Part shown: positions 2,177-18,491 of the stretch, piece after piece
Layout of the letters: each line of letters starts with the position of its first letter
Position numbering within the stretch: the first letter of the stretch is position 1
DNA from: a virus
DNA length: 38,431 nucleotides
Virus record (IMG/VR): IMGVR_UViG_3300025646_000128
Coordinates: 1-38,431 of that record
Strand: one strand, 5' to 3'
Notes under the pieces: generated by a model
What the model saw: the letters and a program-made list of their open reading frames with translations, nothing else
Database searches by the model: none
Told to the model about the DNA's origin: nothing
Program-made: the position numbers and the translations under genes

Positions 2177-3307
2177 ATGTCGGAAGAGATTATCAAGAAT
2201 AACCCAGACGCTGCTGGTGCTGACTCTGGTCTATATAACGGAGAAGGTGCTTTTGCATCTGGTGGTGTTGGAGGTGTAACGAATCCTGGTGCAGATACAC
2301 TAGGAAACATTCCAACAGCTAACTTTGGTGTGACAAGTGGTCCAAATGCCGTAAATCCTTCGGGTGATGCTGCTAGTGGTATCCTACGCCCTGAACAGGC
2401 CCGTAGGTTTATTGACTACGTTTGGGATGCTACTGTTCTCGCCAAGGATGGCCGCCGAGTTACCATGCGTGCAAACACAATGGAGCTCGAAAAGGTCAAT
2501 GTGGGTGAGCGTGTTATCCGTGCAGCTGCACAGGCTAACGGTGACTACACCAACACTGGTGCTCAGTTCACAAAGGTTGAACTGACTACAAAGAAGATCC
2601 GTCTGGACTGGGAGGTCTCAGCTGAAGCACTAGAAGACAACGTCGAAGGTGCTGCACTTGAGGACCACTTGGTTCGACTAATGACAAATGCTTTTGCAAA
2701 TGACATTGAAGATCTAGCAATTAACGGTACTGGTACTGGTTCTGACGCATTCCTGAGCATTATGCCAGGTTTCGTCGCAAAGCACCAGGGCAACGGAGAC
2801 TCACACGAGTCTGTTGTTACAGTAACCAACGATGGCTGGACCCCAGAGGTCATGCAGAACATTATTCTGGCTATGCCACGTAAGTATCGTGCACTTAAGA
2901 ACAATCTTAAGTTCTACGCTGGTACTGACGTGTTCCAGGGTATCGTAAAGAACAATGGTACACTTGCGGACGCTATTGCTGAGGCCTTTGGCTCTCACGC
3001 AGGTGCTGCTGGTACACCAGCTGGTCGTGAGCGTTACCTATCTGGAACAGACCAGACATTCGGTGGTGCTCGCACTACCCGTGTTCTAGGCATTGAGGTA
3101 CAGGAAGTACCTTACTACCCAGATGGTTACATCGATCTAACATTCCCTCAGAACCGTGTATGGGGTTTCCAGCGAGACATCACTGTAAACCGTGAGTACA
3201 AGGCTAAGAAGGACACCATTGAGTACACCGTATTCGTACGTTTTGGTATTCAGTGGGAGGAAGAGGACGCAATTGCTTGGGCAGATGCCGCAGCAGACGC
3301 ATCCTAA
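2177..3307 (+). CDS. Major capsid protein (HK97 fold)
   Basis: The 376-residue protein follows the scaffold gene and has a strong Shine-Dalgarno (TAGGAGGTGA) before ATG. The first ~65 residues are Gly/Ala/Asn-rich and flexible, as in precursor arms. Then follow segments typical of HK97-fold capsids: the long spine helix region with WEVSAEALEDN and the IEDLAINGTGTGS stretch after it. The FPQNRVWGFQRDITVN and EYTVFVRFGIQWEEEDA segments near the end fit the P-domain and A-domain strands. Hundreds of copies would form the icosahedral shell. Codon use is markedly more C-ended than in neighbouring genes, as expected for a highly expressed gene, and a terminator follows directly. Confidence 0.9.
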   Translation: MSEEIIKNNPDAAGADSGLYNGEGAFASGGVGGVTNPGADTLGNIPTANFGVTSGPNAVNPSGDAASGILRPEQARRFIDYVWDATVLAKDGRRVTMRANTMELEKVNVGERVIRAAAQANGDYTNTGAQFTKVELTTKKIRLDWEVSAEALEDNVEGAALEDHLVRLMTNAFANDIEDLAINGTGTGSDAFLSIMPGFVAKHQGNGDSHESVVTVTNDGWTPEVMQNIILAMPRKYRALKNNLKFYAGTDVFQGIVKNNGTLADAIAEAFGSHAGAAGTPAGRERYLSGTDQTFGGARTTRVLGIEVQEVPYYPDGYIDLTFPQNRVWGFQRDITVNREYKAKKDTIEYTVFVRFGIQWEEEDAIAWADAAADAS

Positions 3308-3328
3308 TCTATAACTAAATAACCTTGA

Positions 3329-3360
3329 GGGGGCAGGGGCTACTCAGCCTCTGCCCCTTT
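3329..3360 (+). terminator. Intrinsic terminator after capsid gene
   Basis: GGGGCAGGGGCT (3330-3341) pairs with AGCCTCTGCCCC (3346-3357) over 12 base pairs with one G-U, closed by a four-base loop (ACTC) and followed by TTT. It is GC-rich in an AT-rich genome, about 22 bases after the capsid stop. It would separate the capsid transcript from the neck genes. Confidence 0.8.
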
Positions 3361-8285: not shown

Positions 8286-11200
8286 ATGGCTGATGCTGAA
8301 GCCAGAATAGGTATAAATGTCGATGTATCAAATGCATTGGCAGGCCTTCGCCTCCTTCAAAAAGAAATGGCCAATTTCAATTTGGCCATGGCCCAGGGCA
8401 CGGCAGCACAACGTGCCCAGGCCCAAACTATACAAAAAGATTTAATAAATAATATAAATGCTAGCGGAAAATTTGCAGCTAGCATTAAGACTGTTTCTAC
8501 TTCTGCAGAATCTTTTACAAATGCCCTAGAAAAAAATAAACTTTCTATGGGGCAATACTTTAAGTATGCTGCAGGAACTTCTAAAACTTTTTCTAGAGTT
8601 TTTAGTAACGAGTTTAACACCATTGAAAAGGTGGCCCGTGAAAGAGTAAAAACTCTACAAACCCAGTACGTCAAGCTTGGCCGTGATGCAAACGGTGCAA
8701 TGAAAGCAATTGCCATTAGGCCACTTGCTCTTGACATGGATAACCTTGCAACTAAGACAGCAATAGCAGCACAAAAACAGGCCATCCTCAATCAGCTTCT
8801 TAGACAGGGTTCTACAAATCTTCTAAATTTTGGTAAGAATACCCAGTGGGCTGGTCGCCAGCTTATGGTCGGTTTCACCATTCCGCTAACTTTGTTTGGT
8901 GCCCAGGCTGCCAGATCATTTATGCAAATTGAGCAACAGGCAATTAAGTTTAGAAGAGTATACGGTGATACATTTACTGCAACAGCAGAAACCGACAAGA
9001 TGATTGAGCAAGTTAAAGAGCTTGCTTCTGAGTTTGCAAAATATGGTGTTCAAGTTGAAAAGACTATGGAAATGGCTGCTGATGCAGCTGCCATGGGTAA
9101 AATGGGTGCAGACCTACTTGCACAAATTAATGAGTCAACAAAGCTAGCGGTGCTTGGTGGGGTAGAGCAAGAACAAGCTTTGCAAACTACGATAGCACTT
9201 ACGAATGCGTTTGGCATCGAAGCAGATAAACTAGCAAGTAAAATTGATTTTTTGAATGCTGTTGAAAACCAAACTGTTACAGCAATTGAAGATTTGACTA
9301 TTGCAATACCAAAAGCTGGCCCTGTTATTCAAGAGCTGGGGGGTAGCGTAGAAGATCTTGCATTCTTCCTAACAGCAATGAAGGAAGGCGGCATTAACGC
9401 ATCAGAGGGTGCTAACGCACTCAAGTCTGGTCTTGCTAGGATGATTAATCCTACAAGAGAGGCTACAGAATTCCTAGCACAGTTTAATATTAATGTTAAT
9501 AAAATTGTTGAAGGAAATGCAGGAAACATTAAAAATGCAGTTCTTGAGCTTGCCACAGCACTAGATACACTAGACCCACTAAACAAAGCACGAGCCATCG
9601 AAACTCTTTTCGGGCGGTTTCAGTTTGCACGTCTTTCTACACTATTTGATAATGTAATTAAGCAAGGTACTCAGGCAGAAAGAGTTCTTAAGCTTTCTGC
9701 TTCTTCGGCTGCAGAGCTAAGAGTTTTGACCCAACGAGAGCTAAAGCGAGTAGAAGACTCGCCAATGTTTAAGTTTCAAAAAGCAGTTGAAGAGCTTCAG
9801 GTTTCTCTTGCACCACTTGGAGAGGCATTTATCAAAGCAGTTACGCCACTTATTAAGTTTGGAACAGATCTTCTTAATAATTTTAACAAGTTAGATGATG
9901 GCACTAAAAACTTTATAGTGACACTTGGAGGGCTTCTTGGTGTTGTCGGACCAGTAGCATTGATGACCTTTGGTTTGCTAGCTAATGGTGTAGCAAACTT
10001 AATTAAGTTGTTCGTAACAATGGGCGGTATTTTTCAAAAGAGCAAGCTAGGAACAACAGATCTTGCAACATCAACACAGTATTTGACACAAGAGCAGCTA
10101 GAAGCAGATGCAGTAGCTGCATCACTTAATAGTAAGCACATTGCTCTAACAAACACCTTTACTTCTGAGGCATCAGCAATTAACCAACTAGTTATTGCAT
10201 ACAATCGTGCACTTACAGCACAGGGAAGACTAGTTGGGGTAACTCCAGCCAAGGGCCAGGTGCTAAACCCAGCTCTAAAACTTGCTGATGGAATCCAGAG
10301 TGTCCCTGGGCGACGTGGTGCGGGAGATGTCGTACCAGCGATGCTGTCTCCTGGAGAGGCGGTTATTCCAGCTAAGCAATCAAAGAAGTACGCTGGATTT
10401 ATTCAGGGAATCCTGGGCGATAACATTCCAGGATTTAAATTCGGAAAGCTAGGCCTAGCAGCAAAATTTGGAAATCGCTTTAAGGGCACTGTTGTCGAAA
10501 CGATGTTTAGAAGGCTTACTGGTCAAAATCTTGATAGGATAAGATTTAATCAGACATCTTTTGAGAATAGGCTAAAAGAAAATGCCATAAGGAGACCTGG
10601 AAAAGATGTAGCTGTAAGGATGTTCTCTGACGACCTAGTCGGTGCACTTGGCAGGGGCGAAAAAAGATATAGAAATATTTTTGAGGTTGGCGGTAAGTCA
10701 AGAGGAAGTCTTGATGAAGCAACTGGACAAAGGGCTATAGCAGAAAAACAGCTGTTCAAGCTTGATGAATCGGCCAGACCAAGCCTGCGTCCAGCATATG
10801 GATACGTCGTAAAAAGAGACTTGCCACAAATTAAGTATGGCAAAACCTCTATTGCAGACAGGCTGTTTGGTGCAGACAGTACTTTTGGTGGAATGAATCC
10901 AAAATACCTGGCTAGAGATAATGTTGCCCAATCAATGTCTGTAATGAATCAAAAGACCTATCGCTATGGAGATATCGCTATGATTCTTAAGCGTAGGGCA
11001 CTTCGTGGAAGAACCACTATTACTCAGGGTGATAGCATCAATGCTGCTCTGGGCAAATATGCCACACCAGCAAAATTTGGAACTTTAAGTAGGGCAAGAC
11101 TTAAAGCTGCAAAAACAACTGGAAAGGGGCAGAGCGATTTTGTAGAAGCCCAAATCCTTGGAGGGTTTAGCTTTAAGGATATCAAGAGAATTGTCTCAAC

Positions 11201-14200
11201 TGAGCCACAAACGATAATCGGGCTTCAGACAGCATTAAAGGCTGCAGGAATTCGTGGAGTTCGTGTCGGCATGCCTAAGCTGACTATGATGCAAAAAATT
11301 AGAGCAGCCCTTAGGATGGGCCCTGGCTCTCCAACAAAGCTTCCCAGAATGCAATCAGAGGGTCCATATAAAGATAGGTACTTTAACGATCCAACAATTC
11401 TAAGTAGCGGTAGAAAGCTGTGGCTCAACAAGGGCATAGTATCTGTCCCTGGACCACGTGGTGCAGGAGATGTTGTTCCAGCAATGCTATCTCCTGGAGA
11501 AGCGGTTATCCCAACCAAATTTGCAGACAAGTATGCCCCACTTATTAACGGCATGGTATCGGGAAGTATCCCAGGATTTATGGCAGGAAGAGCTGGAGAA
11601 GGCAATAGTAGGATGTGGTTTGATCCTAAGAATACTCTGCAGGCATCACACATGAGAGAAGAAACTAGCCTTTTGTCACAGGCCGAAGCTAGAAGAATGC
11701 TTCGTAGAGAAGTTGACAAAGCAATTAGGATGGGAATTCTTAGCAGGAGTGATATTGACACAAAGGCAATATCTGGCCTGACTGGACAAAATAAGCTATA
11801 TTCACAACAGCTAGCATTAATGCAATCTGGAACTAATCAGGCTACTACAACTAGGGGCGGAGGAGCAGTATCAAAATCAGATTTCGGATCATTTGTTAGA
11901 AACAATCCAGGAATGATGGGTGCTGGAACGGCAGCAAACCTAGAGTTCTTAAAGGGTACGGCTCAAGGCGGTAGATATTCGGCAGTAACTGATAAAACGT
12001 TGACCAAATACCTAAAAGACTTTGACAAGAGCATAACTCAGCAACTAAAGCTTTTGAATAAGAAGACTCTTACTGAAAGAGATCAGTATAGAATTTTTAA
12101 GAAAGCCAGAGTTGATGCTGAAAGACAAATTTCTAACATTAGTCAGAGAAGTGCTATTAAGCTAGTAAATAGATTTGGTGACTTAAGGCTTAGCCCAGGA
12201 ACTCCAGGAAAGCTTGCCCAAGGAGCCTCAGACCAAGGCAGAACTATGAGGCCTAGTCCAGTTAAGAATTATGGAAATGCACAGAAGAGAACGCAAGGAA
12301 TTCGTTCCAGGCTTGCCACCTTGATGGGAAGGCCAGATACATTTTTGTCACAAGCAAACATGATGCTTCCTCAAGCAATGAAAGCCCAAATTCAACCACT
12401 TCTTGGTGCCCTACCTCCTGAAGCTCGTGCAGCAGCCGAAAGAGATTTGATAGCTGCAAAGGGTGATCCCAAAAAGCTTCAAGCGGTAGCCAATAAGATT
12501 ATCAAGGGAGACTATGGAAAGCTTGCTGCCACATCTCAAAAACAAACTTCAGGAAAAGCAGCTGCAACAAAGCCAGCCAAACCTTCAACAAAGGCTACAA
12601 ATAAGCGAGCACCCGCAAGACCTAAGCCAGTATCTAATGTTCTTCTAAGGGAAAATCTTGGAAATGGCGTAACTAGAACTGTATCTCAATCAGAAAATGG
12701 AAGAATTGCTACAACATTCCGTCATAACAATAGGTTTGTTTCTGAGGCCAAGGCCCTAGAGCTGTCTCAGCTTAAGCCTCAAAAAACAAATGGAATAAGA
12801 AAATTAATTTCAGGAAATGGAAATAGGCCATCTCTAGGAACGGCCATGGGCGTTGCTGGCGGTGCTGGAATGACAGCTGGAATGATGATGTCCTTTAGTG
12901 GCGAAGAAGGAATGCAAAGTCTAGGACAAAATGTTCTAATGGGTTCGTTGCTTCTTAGTATGCTGCCAATGCTTAAAAATCCTGCTGTTGCAGTTGTTGC
13001 AGGTCTAGCAGCTGTTGCAGGAAGTATGTGGTATTTAAATAAGAGACTTGAAGATGCTGCCAAGTCTGGGGTAGACGCTGCTAGTGCGATGTCTATGACA
13101 AACAAAAAACTAGAAGAGCTAGCTCAGTTTACAGGCTCTGCAACTGCATCATCAATTTTGGACGAAGAGAGGGCCACTCAGCTTGCTGGTGAGCCAGGTA
13201 AGAAGAGACAGTTTGGACAAGAATTCCTAGGGTCAGAGCTCGGCCAGTCAATGATGGCAGATGTCAAGTCTCAAATTGAGAGCGGAGCTTCCAGCCTTGA
13301 GGTTGGGCAAAATATTGCAAACCAGCTTGCATATGCAGTTCTTCAGGGTGCATTAACAAAGGCCGAAGCTGGTAGCATAGCAGCAGCACTAAGTACTGAA
13401 CTAAAAGACTTTACAATAACTGCTACAGTAAATGGACAACTTAATAGGTTGATGGGACCAAATGGAGAAAACCTGCTTACCGATCCATTAACTATTGCCT
13501 TAAATATTCAGCAAAACTCTGTAGACCAGCAATCTCAGGCATTTGAAAATGCTTTCTCAACAGCTACCGAAAATTCCTTAGACACATTTAGAAATAATGT
13601 CTTGTCTGTATCTGCTGCTAGTGCGGTTGCAATAGCAGGTTCAGCCATAACTGCTGGCCTAATTGCGGGTGGGGTAACTGCACCACTAGCACTGGCCTCT
13701 GCAGCATTAACCGCCATAGCTGCAACGCAAACCCAAACGCTCGTAGATGCTGGACTAGAAGGCTGGCAGCGAGAAGAGAATGCTAAGCTAATGGGAGTAG
13801 CCGTACAGCTTGGTGCAGAACAGTTAGCACAGAACCAGGGAATTCTTGATGCAACTGAACAAAGATATGCTTCTCAAATAGCTGATCTACAAGCTCAAAA
13901 GGAAGCTGCCAAAACAGATGAAGAACGCCTTGCACTAGAGCAACAGATTGCTGATAAGCAAGCTGAAAGAGATGCAGGCCTTGCCCAGATTAAGCAAAAA
14001 AATGCCGATATCTATAATAGCCTAGTTCAGCAAGCTGAGGCCCTAAAAGATGTCGATCCAGAAGGATTTAATAATGCAATTGGACTTGCAATCGATGCTC
14101 AATACGCAAATTCTTCTGATGCACTTAAGGCAGCAGCAGAACTGGCAAAAGAGTCCCTATCTAGCATGGAAGACGGTGAGTTTAAGGTAGGTCTTCAGAT

Positions 14201-17200
14201 TGCCCTAGCTGCTGGAGAGCTAGATCCAGTTACTGTTACTAATCTAGTTAATGCAGCTAAAGACAATGCTGACATTGAAGCAAAATACAAACTTTTAGTA
14301 GATAGCGAGGGAACAGCAGAAGCAAATCAGCTACTGCAGATACTTGCAAAAGCGGGTGTTAAAACTGCAAACTACTCTGTAATTATTGATTACATTATGA
14401 ATAATGGAACAGAGTTTGACAATGATGTCGAAGCTTTGGCACAAATTGCAAACATGGAACAAGAGTACGGTTTAAGGATTGACCTAGATGCTTCTGGATC
14501 CCAAAAGATTATTGATTCAGTATCACAATTTATTGAAGATACAGATGAGATGCCAGAAATGGTAACACTTGATGTTTTAACTAACTATCTTGCCCAATAT
14601 CCAAATATGGATCCAGGAACAGTTCAAACAATTAAGGGCCTAATTGATAACTGGGATGTTCTTTCAAATGGAAATAATGAAGTTAACTACCAAGTCTTGG
14701 TTGACTTTGCAATTGGAAAGGCAGACCCAGCAGCCATTCTGGGATTCTATCTGGCACAAAATCCAGACAAGGCACCAAAGTTTACGGGATCCCTAGATGC
14801 GTTTGAAAGGCAAAAGAGCTCACTACTTGACGATGCTATCGCATGGTTTATGGGTCTGCTAGGAAATAACCCAATTAATACTGACGTAGAGGAAGTGGTT
14901 ACAGGAACTGGAACCAGAAGCACAATTCTAGACTCCATTCTTAATAAGCTAAAGCAGGTTAAAGATGCAGCTATAGATGCAACTAGCGGGCTTGCTGGTT
15001 TAAAGAACCTTCTTGGCGACGGACAAGATCTTCAAGGATTCTCTGGATTTAATCAACAGCTTGTCTTTAAGGGCTACGGCTCTGAATTTATTGACTTTTT
15101 AAATGGTCTAGAAACAGCTGATCGTGAAAAGTTCTTAACAATTACTGAAGACGGACTAATTCGTGTCACCAAAGCTGGAAAAGCACTAAACAGTGCATTT
15201 GCAGAGGCGGCATTGGGAGATTTCCAGTTCTCGCTTACTCAGGGCGTAGCAGACATGAATATGACAATTCGTGCCATGAATACCCTAACTGCTGCAGGAC
15301 TAACAAACGCAGAAGCATATGAAATTGCCACAGATGCTGCCCTTGCATATGCAATTGTAACTAGAACAAATGATGCAGATCTTGACAATCTAATTGATTC
15401 ATTTAGAAGATTTAAAAAGCTAGCAGCTGAAGCAGAAAACATGACCCCAGAAGGATTCCTTTCTAACCTGGGCACAGGTATGGGAAAGATTGATGAATTC
15501 TTTGCTAATCGTAAAAACCTTGTAAACCTAGACTTTGAGCTGGGCATTAATCAAAGTGGATTAAACCCAGACAGCATCAACATGAGTGCAATTCAAGACC
15601 TAATAAACGAGGCAGAGTTTGACATCTTCAATTGGGAATACGAAATAGATGATCTTGAGTATTTGATTGATGGTATTGCTAAGCAAGAAGATGCAATTAA
15701 TGAGGCGTACGATAAACGAGTAGAGGCTTTAGAAAAGGTAAACGAGCTTAATCAGGATGCCATTGCGGGAGAAAAGGCTAAGCTGACTATTGCAGATGCT
15801 TTAAGTCAGGGTGACATTGCAGCAGCAGCTAAGGCAGCTATTGATGAGCGTGAACGTCAGGCAGAACTTCAGTTTGAAAAACAAAAGGCGGCACTTGAGG
15901 CTTCTAGAGAAAGAGCACTTTCTGGAGTCACTGCCACAAATGGCCAAACAAGGGTACAAATTGAAGAAAAGATTCTCGAACTTAGAGACCTAATTGCTCA
16001 AAAGGAAGAAGATGTTTTAGAGAAGCAGGAAAAGCAGCTTCTAGAGGCAGAGCGTGCAAGAGACGTGGCACTAGAAGCAATCGGTGCAGAGGGCTATCTC
16101 GGCAAGACAGAAGATCAGTGGAGGGCAATCGAAGCTGCCACTAGAGATGCTGTAACTCAAACAACAGCCTGGAAAGATGAAATTATAGCAGCCCTAAAGC
16201 TCCTTGGCGGAATGTTTGACGCAGAAGGAAACTTTATAGGATTCGGTTCACTAAAATTCCCAACCTCTGGTGAAATGCTTGGAAACGACGGCAGTGGTGG
16301 AACAACTCCAAGCCCAACTCCTACAAACACAGGCCCTGGTCCATCCGATCCTCCTCGTAATAATGATGACGGCAGTAGTTCCGCTCCAAGAGTTCTTATC
16401 GCTGACACTACCCCTGCAGAGCTTGAAAAGATCAACATTCCAAAGACAAAAGAGGAGCTAAATAAGAATATTCCAAAGGGCAAGGGTATTGCAGAGGCTA
16501 CTGCCGCTGAAGGAAGTGAAGGAATTCCGACACCGACACCTCCTGCCCCTGCAAACAATCTAACCCCTAGACAAAGAGAGCTGCTGAATAGAACGGGCCG
16601 TCCGATATTGATGGATGGCAAAACTTACTATGTTCCGCCAAAGGGCGGTGCCTTTGCTCTAGCAGACGGGGGCAGCATTTCTGGCCCAGGAACTGGCACA
16701 TCTGACTCTATTCCTGCAATGCTTTCTGACGGTGAATATGTAGTCAGGGCATCTAGTGTGGGCAAGCTCGGTGTAGACTTCCTAAACTTTATCAACAAAA
16801 ATGGACATATACCTGGATTTGCCTTCGGTGGCAAGGTAATGCTAGACAAGGGAAATTCATTTGCAAGCAAGCCAACAAGTGTAAGCTCAGCCCTAGCTGC
16901 AGATAAGAAACGGGCATTCTCATTTAAGTCGCCAACTAAGCCTGAGCCAAAACCAGGAGACCCGTCGTTTGCTGCATATCGCCCCACCAGCCCAGGAGAT
17001 GCAATTGGTAAGGGCATGCAGCTTGCAATGGACAACATTCAAAGATTATTCTTTGGTCAGGCATCGCTTAATGCTAAATATGGCATTAGCAGTGACACTT
17101 CTGACACAATAGATTCAATAGCTGCTATAGCACTAAACAGCCTGCCAGCTCCAGCACTAAAGGGAATTACTAACATAAGAAGCCTTGCACCAGCTATAGA

Positions 17201-18491
17201 TAATATGATTGCAAAATCAATTATTCAAAATACACTAAATAAGCCAAGGGTCGCAGTTGGAATGACACCAAGTGGCGTTGAAGGAGCAATTAAAGACAGA
17301 GCTTTTAGAACAATAAGCGACCTAGAAGATGTTGGACAGTTTGTAACTAGGCCATCTGGATATAATGCCACAAGAAGACAAGTAGAAAACGACCTACTGG
17401 GCATTCCACTTAATACAGCATCATCTCAAAGACCAATATATGGAACTATAACATCCGCTTTTGGCACCAGACTTCCCTATAGTTTAGTACAAAAAATGGG
17501 AGGGCAAACTGGCAATGCTTTGAGATTGTTCGATCCAAGATTTAATAAAGTTACAAACCAATATATGTATAACCTTGGAAGCAACGCCAGCGATTTTGTA
17601 CCGCTAGCACTAGCAAGGACTGGAAGGGGTGCTCAAGGAACCTACACACTAGGAGACACATTTAGGCTCTCTCCTGGGGCCAACATCTTTAGGCTAGGCA
17701 ATAAGACAGACTCAAGGAACGCAACACAGGCAATACTTAGAGAATTTAAATCACCAAGTAGTGAGCTAAGAAATGTATCACCATACTCATTGCCATATCT
17801 TGAGGCTCAGATTAACAATGGTAAAAATCTTTTTAACCTAGTTAAAAAGTTTGAGGTTCCGATAAGGCAAAACAATAATGAGTGGGCAGGCCTAACCCAA
17901 AGCACTGCAAGGTCAGAAGCTCAAAGGCTACAAAACTTTTTACAGCAAAGTGGCGTATCCAATGTAAGGACTGGAACATTTAGAGACATAGCACCAGCTT
18001 GGCAATGGCAACTAAAGCAGATGAAAACCGATATGTTGAGGTCTCCAGCAATAAGAGGAGCAAAAAATCTACAATATGAGCTATCAAGAACTGGATCAAG
18101 GATAAAAGATCAGGTTCTTCAAAGATTAATGCCACAAAGGCAGGCTCCAGGATACAACCCACTCCGTGGAGTTGATTGGGAAAATACGCTTGCAAGCGGT
18201 GGGCTTGTTAAGCCAAAGTATCTAAGCTCTGGTGGCTTTGCAATTGGAACAGACACTGTGCCCGCAATGCTTACTCCAGGAGAGTTCGTAATGAGTAGAT
18301 ATGCAGTGCAGGCACATGGAGTCGACAAACTAAAGGCCATGAATTCTGGTGCAAATTCTTCTGAGTCAGTGTATAATTATAACTTGAGCTTAAATGTTAA
18401 GTCTGAAGCAAACCCCGATGAAATTGCTCGCACAGTAATGACACAGATTAAGCGGGTAGACTCTCAAAGGTTAAGGAGTAATAGGTTCTAA
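8286..18491 (+). CDS. Tape measure protein
   Basis: At 3401 residues this is by far the largest gene. Start choice: GGAGGT (8272-8277) lies 8 bases before ATG 8286; an ATG at 8282 in another frame stops at once. Residues ~230-450 resemble the TP901-type tape measure core (PhageMin_Tail), with EMAADAAAMGKMGADLL and AIPKAGPVIQELGG. Hydrophobic, membrane-like stretches lie near 540-585, 1515-1580 and 1775-1820. Coiled coils lie near 1860-1925 and 2450-2640, with a Pro/Thr-rich linker near 2670-2705. Four PAML(S/T)PGE repeats occur (residues 672, 1053, 2797, 3314 on), and two ART-like segments lie between repeats 1-2 and 3-4. The protein sets tail length, is assembled with the two upstream chaperones, and is normally ejected with DNA. 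At ~0.15 nm per residue the tail would approach 0.5 micrometre, less if the inserts fold compactly. Confidence 0.95.
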   Translation: MADAEARIGINVDVSNALAGLRLLQKEMANFNLAMAQGTAAQRAQAQTIQKDLINNINASGKFAASIKTVSTSAESFTNALEKNKLSMGQYFKYAAGTSKTFSRVFSNEFNTIEKVARERVKTLQTQYVKLGRDANGAMKAIAIRPLALDMDNLATKTAIAAQKQAILNQLLRQGSTNLLNFGKNTQWAGRQLMVGFTIPLTLFGAQAARSFMQIEQQAIKFRRVYGDTFTATAETDKMIEQVKELASEFAKYGVQVEKTMEMAADAAAMGKMGADLLAQINESTKLAVLGGVEQEQALQTTIALTNAFGIEADKLASKIDFLNAVENQTVTAIEDLTIAIPKAGPVIQELGGSVEDLAFFLTAMKEGGINASEGANALKSGLARMINPTREATEFLAQFNINVNKIVEGNAGNIKNAVLELATALDTLDPLNKARAIETLFGRFQFARLSTLFDNVIKQGTQAERVLKLSASSAAELRVLTQRELKRVEDSPMFKFQKAVEELQVSLAPLGEAFIKAVTPLIKFGTDLLNNFNKLDDGTKNFIVTLGGLLGVVGPVALMTFGLLANGVANLIKLFVTMGGIFQKSKLGTTDLATSTQYLTQEQLEADAVAASLNSKHIALTNTFTSEASAINQLVIAYNRALTAQGRLVGVTPAKGQVLNPALKLADGIQSVPGRRGAGDVVPAMLSPGEAVIPAKQSKKYAGFIQGILGDNIPGFKFGKLGLAAKFGNRFKGTVVETMFRRLTGQNLDRIRFNQTSFENRLKENAIRRPGKDVAVRMFSDDLVGALGRGEKRYRNIFEVGGKSRGSLDEATGQRAIAEKQLFKLDESARPSLRPAYGYVVKRDLPQIKYGKTSIADRLFGADSTFGGMNPKYLARDNVAQSMSVMNQKTYRYGDIAMILKRRALRGRTTITQGDSINAALGKYATPAKFGTLSRARLKAAKTTGKGQSDFVEAQILGGFSFKDIKRIVSTEPQTIIGLQTALKAAGIRGVRVGMPKLTMMQKIRAALRMGPGSPTKLPRMQSEGPYKDRYFNDPTILSSGRKLWLNKGIVSVPGPRGAGDVVPAMLSPGEAVIPTKFADKYAPLINGMVSGSIPGFMAGRAGEGNSRMWFDPKNTLQASHMREETSLLSQAEARRMLRREVDKAIRMGILSRSDIDTKAISGLTGQNKLYSQQLALMQSGTNQATTTRGGGAVSKSDFGSFVRNNPGMMGAGTAANLEFLKGTAQGGRYSAVTDKTLTKYLKDFDKSITQQLKLLNKKTLTERDQYRIFKKARVDAERQISNISQRSAIKLVNRFGDLRLSPGTPGKLAQGASDQGRTMRPSPVKNYGNAQKRTQGIRSRLATLMGRPDTFLSQANMMLPQAMKAQIQPLLGALPPEARAAAERDLIAAKGDPKKLQAVANKIIKGDYGKLAATSQKQTSGKAAATKPAKPSTKATNKRAPARPKPVSNVLLRENLGNGVTRTVSQSENGRIATTFRHNNRFVSEAKALELSQLKPQKTNGIRKLISGNGNRPSLGTAMGVAGGAGMTAGMMMSFSGEEGMQSLGQNVLMGSLLLSMLPMLKNPAVAVVAGLAAVAGSMWYLNKRLEDAAKSGVDAASAMSMTNKKLEELAQFTGSATASSILDEERATQLAGEPGKKRQFGQEFLGSELGQSMMADVKSQIESGASSLEVGQNIANQLAYAVLQGALTKAEAGSIAAALSTELKDFTITATVNGQLNRLMGPNGENLLTDPLTIALNIQQNSVDQQSQAFENAFSTATENSLDTFRNNVLSVSAASAVAIAGSAITAGLIAGGVTAPLALASAALTAIAATQTQTLVDAGLEGWQREENAKLMGVAVQLGAEQLAQNQGILDATEQRYASQIADLQAQKEAAKTDEERLALEQQIADKQAERDAGLAQIKQKNADIYNSLVQQAEALKDVDPEGFNNAIGLAIDAQYANSSDALKAAAELAKESLSSMEDGEFKVGLQIALAAGELDPVTVTNLVNAAKDNADIEAKYKLLVDSEGTAEANQLLQILAKAGVKTANYSVIIDYIMNNGTEFDNDVEALAQIANMEQEYGLRIDLDASGSQKIIDSVSQFIEDTDEMPEMVTLDVLTNYLAQYPNMDPGTVQTIKGLIDNWDVLSNGNNEVNYQVLVDFAIGKADPAAILGFYLAQNPDKAPKFTGSLDAFERQKSSLLDDAIAWFMGLLGNNPINTDVEEVVTGTGTRSTILDSILNKLKQVKDAAIDATSGLAGLKNLLGDGQDLQGFSGFNQQLVFKGYGSEFIDFLNGLETADREKFLTITEDGLIRVTKAGKALNSAFAEAALGDFQFSLTQGVADMNMTIRAMNTLTAAGLTNAEAYEIATDAALAYAIVTRTNDADLDNLIDSFRRFKKLAAEAENMTPEGFLSNLGTGMGKIDEFFANRKNLVNLDFELGINQSGLNPDSINMSAIQDLINEAEFDIFNWEYEIDDLEYLIDGIAKQEDAINEAYDKRVEALEKVNELNQDAIAGEKAKLTIADALSQGDIAAAAKAAIDERERQAELQFEKQKAALEASRERALSGVTATNGQTRVQIEEKILELRDLIAQKEEDVLEKQEKQLLEAERARDVALEAIGAEGYLGKTEDQWRAIEAATRDAVTQTTAWKDEIIAALKLLGGMFDAEGNFIGFGSLKFPTSGEMLGNDGSGGTTPSPTPTNTGPGPSDPPRNNDDGSSSAPRVLIADTTPAELEKINIPKTKEELNKNIPKGKGIAEATAAEGSEGIPTPTPPAPANNLTPRQRELLNRTGRPILMDGKTYYVPPKGGAFALADGGSISGPGTGTSDSIPAMLSDGEYVVRASSVGKLGVDFLNFINKNGHIPGFAFGGKVMLDKGNSFASKPTSVSSALAADKKRAFSFKSPTKPEPKPGDPSFAAYRPTSPGDAIGKGMQLAMDNIQRLFFGQASLNAKYGISSDTSDTIDSIAAIALNSLPAPALKGITNIRSLAPAIDNMIAKSIIQNTLNKPRVAVGMTPSGVEGAIKDRAFRTISDLEDVGQFVTRPSGYNATRRQVENDLLGIPLNTASSQRPIYGTITSAFGTRLPYSLVQKMGGQTGNALRLFDPRFNKVTNQYMYNLGSNASDFVPLALARTGRGAQGTYTLGDTFRLSPGANIFRLGNKTDSRNATQAILREFKSPSSELRNVSPYSLPYLEAQINNGKNLFNLVKKFEVPIRQNNNEWAGLTQSTARSEAQRLQNFLQQSGVSNVRTGTFRDIAPAWQWQLKQMKTDMLRSPAIRGAKNLQYELSRTGSRIKDQVLQRLMPQRQAPGYNPLRGVDWENTLASGGLVKPKYLSSGGFAIGTDTVPAMLTPGEFVMSRYAVQAHGVDKLKAMNSGANSSESVYNYNLSLNVKSEANPDEIARTVMTQIKRVDSQRLRSNRF
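10299..10448 (+). repeat. Tape measure PAMLSPGE repeat 1
   Basis: This codes for residues 672-721, with GAGDVVPAMLSPGEAVIP followed by a helix and IPGFKFG. It is about 75% identical in protein to repeat 2 over the first 25 residues, and the DNA is also clearly related. The motif recurs in tape measure and other phage proteins and its role is unknown. Confidence 0.8.
10650..11270 (+). other. ART-like segment A inside tape measure protein
   Basis: Residues ~790-995 contain, in order, RPAYG (R835), the run RTTITQGDS (D916, S917) and DFVEAQILGG (E954). This R / T-x-T-x-GDS / EAQ order resembles the R-S-E layout of ADP-ribosyltransferase-like folds and of the DUF3626 family. It sits between PAMLSPGE repeats 1 and 2. 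Fold and activity are inferred from short motifs only. Confidence 0.4.
11442..11591 (+). repeat. Tape measure PAMLSPGE repeat 2
   Basis: Residues 1053-1102 have the same order as repeat 1: GAGDVVPAMLSPGEAVIP, then a KYAPLINGM helix and SIPGFMAG. It closes the segment that starts with repeat 1. Confidence 0.8.
16674..16836 (+). repeat. Tape measure PAMLSDGE repeat 3
   Basis: Residues 2797-2850 are a more diverged copy: GTSDSIPAMLSDGEYVV, then a helix (VGKLGVDFLNFINKNG) and HIPGFAFGGK. It opens the second insert and follows the Pro/Thr-rich linker. Confidence 0.75.
17340..17880 (+). other. ART-like segment B inside tape measure protein
   Basis: Residues ~3020-3200 repeat the motif order of segment A: RPIYG (R3049), GTYTLGDT (D3124, T3125) and PYLEAQINNG (E3173). 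Spacings are similar (75 and 49 residues against 81 and 38 in A). It lies between PAML repeats 3 and 4, the same relative position. The GDS serine of segment A is Thr here, so this copy may be inactive or variant. Confidence 0.35.
18225..18350 (+). repeat. Tape measure PAMLTPGE repeat 4
   Basis: Residues 3314-3355: SGGFAIGTDTVPAMLTPGE, then a short FVMSRYAVQAHG and a helix. It closes the second insert, about 47 residues before the C-terminus. Confidence 0.75.

Follow-up and report, generated by a model that had tools for sequence, protein, structure and literature searches.

The stretch of DNA analysed here (the window) is one entire IMG/VR record, IMGVR_UViG_3300025646_000128, of 38,431 bases; it is classed linear and is therefore perhaps a fragment of a genome. 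It encodes a tape measure protein (TMP) of 3401 residues, with head genes upstream (portal, head maturation protease and major head protein) and tail genes downstream. An earlier note on this DNA had pointed to two distant segments of the TMP that resemble ADP-ribosyltransferases (ARTs), and these segments are the subject of our analysis.

Two related domains inside the tape measure protein

The TMP gene and the features of the two segments are the following (all on the plus strand):

8286..18491, plus strand: TMP, 3401 residues; PhageMin_Tail (PF10145) at residues 246-443 with an E-value (E) of 1e-25, and TMP families of PHROGs to E 6e-91 over residues 44-650
10569..11273, plus strand: predicted ART domain 1, core, residues 762-996; its AlphaFold2 model (residues 730-1011) matches DarT and SopF, and a sister copy is over the DUF3626 cut-off
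10788..10802, plus strand: RPAYG motif, R835-G839; P and Y invariant in the domain-1 homologues, domain 2 and the mycobacteriophage and DSL-LC01 homologues described below; Y838 is the proposed active-site Tyr
11031..11036, plus strand: D916-S917 of TITQGDS (residues 911-917); D invariant in all full-length homologues compared
11145..11147, plus strand: E954 of EAQ, the Glu proposed as catalytic; invariant in every full-length homologue, in domain 2 and in the mycobacteriophage and DSL-LC01 copies
17178..17978, plus strand: ART-like domain 2, core, residues 2965-3231; from hhalign and a hidden Markov model (HMM) of domain 1 only
17430..17444, plus strand: RPIYG motif, R3049-G3053, including Y3052; from the joint alignment
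17655..17660, plus strand: D3124-T3125 of TYTLGDT (residues 3119-3125); from the joint alignment
17802..17804, plus strand: E3173 of EAQ; from the joint alignment

The ordered motifs RPxYG, TxTxGD(S/T) and EAQ lie exactly where the earlier note had placed them (R835/D916/E954 and R3049/D3124/E3173), and domains are indeed present around both sets, with cores slightly wider than claimed (approximately residues 762-996 and 2965-3231). With loose spacing, the full ordered motif was observed twice in the TMP and in 0 of 20,000 shuffles of the protein. As the pattern had been framed after seeing the data, we placed weight on profile tests rather than on motif shuffles.

For these, 38 TMP loci of related phages were collected by means of the conserved N-terminus, and 11, which in part share contigs with these, by means of the ART itself (loci are cited below by L numbers). 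The ART relatives were reached through the TMP N-terminus first and then with three aligned copies of domain 1; with seven copies the alignment was too divergent to serve for a pattern scan. Pattern scans reach close relatives only, so that the absence of hits is no evidence of absence, and within this reach no relatives were obtained from viral contigs with either domain as a single protein, from bacterial genomes in two scans, or with the middle part of the TMP in one more.

Ten domain-1 homologues aligned cleanly. Compared with segment 2 by hhalign, they gave a probability of 97% and a score of 76 over 229 columns, whereas all controls (7 other TMP pieces, 10 other inserts, 60 shuffles and the reversed sequence) scored 24 or less. 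In hmmsearch, a profile of the domain-1 homologues without the window copy matched segment 2 with E=8.8e-11, vs. 0.27 for the best of 998 shuffles. The homology covers the entire domain of ~230 residues and not just the three motifs, and the joint alignment has thirteen invariant columns, including the R, P, Y and G of RPxYG, the GD and the Glu. By these profile comparisons, the similarity between the segments is strong and the two TMP domains are mutually related.

Predicted fold, family and active site

To compare folds, we used an AlphaFold2 model of residues 730-1011, built on a modest alignment of 10 sequences, in which the mean predicted local distance difference test (pLDDT) score was 64.5 and the core reached 80-90. 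In a Foldseek search of the PDB with this model, the top ten chains were all ARTs, either DarT or SopF, with E of 2e-4 to 1e-3 and a probability of 1.00. VIA-align gave Z-scores of 12.2 for DarT, 11.1 for SopF, 7.6 for the ART-like Tpt1 and 4-6 for other ARTs. The best matches in a library of predicted viral models included phage proteins of large, multidomain size, one protein named DUF3626 and one minor capsid protein. The model and the fold search thus agree with the ART resemblance proposed in the earlier note: domain 1 has, as modelled, an ART fold of the DarT/SopF type. Domain 2 is a putative ART by homology to domain 1 only.

A kinship with DUF3626 (PF12294), which the note had also raised, was found through sister copies. 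The copy in the same slot of L017 (slot 1, see below), 40% identical, is just over the Pfam cut-off (27.2 vs. 27 bits), and 5 of the 10 homologues match the family at E<=1 (best 1.7e-6). Both window copies fall below the gathering cut-off of 27 bits, and the window record likewise gave no match. With a sister cassette over the DUF3626 cut-off and the window copies under it, the window domains are DUF3626-related without being formal members. Direct searches of Pfam, NCBIfam, PADLOC and PDB sequences with the window domains yielded nothing usable. SopF, reported to be a DUF3626 protein (PMC6682159), is itself an ART: it has the triad I-Y-E and modifies Gln124 of ATP6V0C (PMC10333799). There is thus an established precedent, in another protein, of ART activity in a DUF3626-type domain. 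Domain 1 resembles DUF3626, SopF and DarT in predicted fold, and the conserved P-x-Y, Asp and Glu are found in DUF3626 phage homologues; the window copies differ in lying under the family cut-off and inside a TMP.

Active-site residues were compared with those of cluster A mycobacteriophage gp2/gp3 and of the portal-adjacent protein of Actinomycetia phage DSL-LC01, all three over the DUF3626 cut-off. All domain-1, mycobacteriophage and DSL-LC01 copies compared share the P-x-Y of RPxYG, the Asp of GD and the Glu of EAQ, but not R835. The earlier note had listed R835 together with D916 and E954. It is probably not the key catalytic residue, because the mycobacteriophage homologues have Pro at this position while Y838, D916 and E954 are kept. 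The Y, D and E positions are also retained among the slot-1 ARTs, at 26-60% identity. Set against the R-S-E arrangement, the Glu is invariant, R835 is lost in the mycobacteriophage homologues, and some copies have Thr for the Ser of GDS or lack it. This conservation suggests an x-Y-E active site (Y838/E954 and Y3052/E3173), like the I-Y-E of SopF, rather than one based on R835. Y838 and E954 lie on predicted strands 108-113 and 223-228 of the domain-1 model.

Exchangeable slots and their contents

The ruler backbone kept in the family consists of the N-terminal ~720 residues, a central region and the C-terminal ~100 residues; the TMPs of relatives have 2378-3790 residues. Close relatives of the window phage are all uncultivated; its TMP N-terminus is ~28% identical to TMPs of Streptomyces phages, and an actinobacterial host would be our guess. 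Both domains lie between repeated loops (all on the plus strand):

10275..10451, plus strand: loop repeat 1, residues 664-722, with ...GAGDVVPAMLSPGEAVIPAK...; left border of cassette 1
10452..11426, plus strand: cassette 1, residues 723-1047; in a blastp block map, backbone homology passes from ~720 to ~1047 in L004, L009, L011 and L014
11418..11594, plus strand: loop repeat 2, residues 1045-1103; right border of cassette 1
16674..16835, plus strand: loop repeat 3, residues 2797-2850, SDSIPAMLSDGEYVV; left border of cassette 2
16797..18191, plus strand: cassette 2, residues 2838-3302; missing in L004 and several others in the blastp block map, with homology passing from ~2837 to ~3302
18222..18383, plus strand: loop repeat 4, residues 3313-3366, GTDTVPAMLTPGEFVM; right border of cassette 2 and TMP C-terminal region

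Every cassette border is a PAML(S/T)PGE loop repeat. Slot 1 holds an ART domain in 17 fetched TMP loci besides the window and unrelated inserts elsewhere, and the TMP of L004 lacks both ARTs. Even TMPs with N-termini 88-99.7% identical differ in their slot contents. Both domains are therefore cassettes in slots that relatives fill otherwise or leave empty, and the arrangement, one carrier with exchanged domains in one slot, has the modularity of polymorphic toxins. We also considered the loops as DNA recombination sites; loops 1 and 2 are just 64% identical in DNA, and recent recombination between them is unsupported.

The ratio of nonsynonymous to synonymous substitution rates (dN/dS, Nei-Gojobori) for the slot-1 ARTs was 0.10-0.38 over nine pairs, a rough range as several dS values exceed 1, and 0.11-0.14 in the three closest pairs, where dS is reliable. 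The slot-1 ARTs are under purifying selection. In L008 and L021 the ART cassettes are 96.5% identical with a dS of 0.16, vs. a dS of 0.84 for the backbones, which shows a recent transfer of the cassette between backbones.

Several other inserts were seen in the slots. The TMP of L029 (IMGVR_UViG_3300042448_000030), of 3790 residues, has inserts at residues ~725-1710, in and after slot 1. Among them are a HAD acid-phosphatase-like domain (E 7e-12) and a GNAT-like acetyltransferase domain, both over Pfam cut-offs, and an unnamed domain common to L010 and L028; the domains are set apart by KMAMGGILEMAKGGI repeats. Another segment of this protein, LGKGMYFS, is reminiscent of PARP-like ARTs and has no family match. 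Slot 1 of L010, L013, L015, L028 and L029 holds a conserved insert of ~290 residues (KQVFVKPVMDEKAALAEIRATTIARQAHGL...RGDKDL; L010:2420-3292) with a faint kinase look. It had no match in any library searched, and no support was found for reading it as a kinase. Recurring unnamed slot-1 inserts are also shared by L009, L011 and L008 (YT[NS]A.[MT]FL..DD) and by L014 and L031, with no Pfam match above cut-off where scanned. The second slot of L017 (TMP residues ~2960-3340; L017:18776-20023) contains a different insert, PLVRV...SVTLDRFMSVTTASS...LYKFNVKS, which by eye looks like a classical R-S-E ART; it matched nothing in Pfam, in NCBIfam or among PDB sequences, and the slot-1 ART profile gave it no score.

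Possible roles of the inserted domains

TMPs occupy the tail tube and come out of it before the DNA does, which has been reported for the gene transfer agent RcGTA (PMC7296036), and their ejection has been reviewed for contractile injection systems and phages (PMC13277306). We consider it quite probable that the window TMP carries its two ART cassettes as cargo that is delivered with the DNA and acts with NAD+ on a host target. The two slots between PAML(S/T)PGE loops are places where domains are inserted, exchanged or absent, both being occupied here by putative ARTs of the DUF3626/SopF/DarT type. At infection the TMP would exit the tail tube ahead of the DNA, and the inserted domains would be carried along. 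Once in the cell (or the envelope), the cassettes would fold and, with NAD+ as donor, ADP-ribosylate a target of the host soon after infection begins, in the manner of head-borne T4 Alt. NAD-dependent activity, cytoplasmic delivery, the target and the benefit to the phage are what we infer for the cassettes. That the slot-1 ARTs are maintained as proteins and yet dispensable for TMP function across the family fits a payload.

A number of points weigh against this cargo role. The AlphaFold2 model of domain 1 has a mean pLDDT of 64 with disordered stretches, and that of domain 2, made from the joint alignment, is unusable (pLDDT 36). In domain 2, several of the conserved positions of domain 1 are lost (the Arg of AVRM is Gly, the FE motif is missing, YG is LG and RTT is GTY), so it may be altered or inactive. 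The Thr for Ser that the earlier note had seen in its TYTLGDT is there, and the degeneration proposed for this copy is possible in view of the residues lost. Domain 2 was found in no other phage by the pattern scans, which reach close relatives only; the dN/dS test covers the slot-1 ARTs. Folded domains of ~230 residues would have to travel unfolded through the narrow tail tube, and they might get no further than the cell envelope, which is poor in NAD. A virion has about 3-6 copies of the TMP, so the dose would be small.

We weighed the cargo role against four other explanations. ART-derived domains could merely lengthen or stiffen the ruler, as structural spacers or relics with no enzymatic role. 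TMPs are long, repetitive and tolerant of insertions, and domain 2, with its lost residues and unusable model, would suit a relic. However, the slot-1 ARTs have dN/dS values of 0.10-0.38 and keep Y, D and E at 26-60% identity, other inserts in the slots include recognisable enzyme families (HAD, GNAT), and slots that are empty or otherwise filled in close relatives make ART content unnecessary for tail building. A spacer or relic is thus unlikely. The earlier note had left effector and relic side by side; for the slot-1 ARTs, dN/dS and cassette exchange speak against the relic, while copy 2 may have degenerated. Overall, these observations favour a functional, exchangeable payload over a relic. 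Chance similarity of motifs in a low-complexity coiled-coil protein, for which we found no support beyond the shortness of the initial motif, is refuted by the profile E-values, the shuffle controls and the fold search and is hardly credible.

Two further explanations concern where and on what the ARTs would act. Like DarT, they could modify bases in host or incoming phage DNA, which is the cargo role with another substrate. DarT is the top structural match and the TMP travels with the DNA end; yet SopF, a DUF3626 protein that modifies protein, is nearly equal (Z 11.1 vs. 12.2), and the R51/H119/M78 arrangement of DarT could not be mapped onto the domain. We regard DNA as a conceivable substrate, though not a probable one. 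Alternatively, the ARTs could serve in penetration, for example at the host cell surface or on proteins of the phage's own tail or DNA channel, or take part in superinfection exclusion. TMPs can end in the envelope, and some have peptidoglycan hydrolase motifs (TM4, cited in PMC13277306). Against this, ARTs need NAD+, which is cytoplasmic, and the sequence gives no signal either way; a role in the envelope or at entry is rather doubtful.

In a broader form, the TMP of this uncultivated phage family would be a general cargo carrier, with slots for interchangeable effectors (ARTs, HAD phosphatase, GNAT and unnamed others), a proposal to which we lean slightly. If so, each particle would deliver host-modifying enzymes within the conduit for DNA injection, as a tail-borne counterpart of the MuF toxins and of head-borne Alt. 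T4 Alt is a virion-injected ART (PMC5512222), and the window ARTs would likewise travel in the virion and presumably act on the host at once; Alt, however, is a separate head protein of the Alt/VIP2 clade with an R-S-E site (PMC5512222), whereas here the ARTs are of the DUF3626/DarT/SopF type and lie inside the tail ruler. The MuF toxins of temperate phages (PMC5576092) are exchangeable domains, including ARTs, on a virion protein and are proposed to be injected. In these the toxin is C-terminal to the MuF domain and the gene is beside the portal gene, while here the carrier is a TMP and the inserts are internal, between loops. No MuF match was found in the window TMP, and the gene after the portal (which ends at ~747) encodes the head maturation protease, so this is not a MuF arrangement.

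Polyvalent proteins (PMC5512222) are injected multi-domain proteins with ART, kinase and GNAT modules. The mix in the L029 TMP is similar, with HAD and GNAT as effector-type domains vs. two of ART type in the window TMP; the article on polyvalent proteins does not mention 'tape measure' and assigns their ARTs to the HYD2 clade. TMP-like effectors of actinobacterial contractile injection systems, such as Sle1 (PMC13277306), are TMP-related and bear diverse exchangeable domains. They belong to dedicated, non-phage nanomachines, their modules are C-terminal and no ART is mentioned, in contrast to internal ARTs in a phage's own TMP. Our searches of the open-licence literature turned up no ART within a TMP.

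If the cargo role is true, a core structural protein, of a kind found in every long-tailed phage particle, can double as a carrier of exchangeable enzymes that modify the host. Part of the unexplained variation in length and of the mosaicism among TMPs may then reflect cargo and not the ruler. The domains and point variants are concrete material for the old question of what TMPs do in the host beyond channel opening, and the relatives supply a natural set of TMP backbones with and without cargo.

Related domains were also seen outside TMPs. The gp2/gp3 proteins of cluster A mycobacteriophages (PHROG 8314; Larenn, Malec, Kerberos) have a homologous DUF3626-type domain (L017 copy, E 1.8e-10 vs. 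phrog_8314), but as a stand-alone gene at the left end of the genome and with Pro instead of R835. In Kerberos and Malec (L041:1318-2097 and L042:1615-2340) the genes are annotated hypothetical, score above the DUF3626 cut-off and keep P-x-Y and the Glu. By sequence, the left-end genes are likely unannotated ARTs, in phages that can be grown in the laboratory. In Actinomycetia phage DSL-LC01 from Dishui Lake (L056:8254-9654), the gene right after the portal gene, annotated 'cytoplasmic protein', has a DUF3626-type domain (38.8 bits) and may encode the same type of enzyme in a head-borne, MuF-like position.
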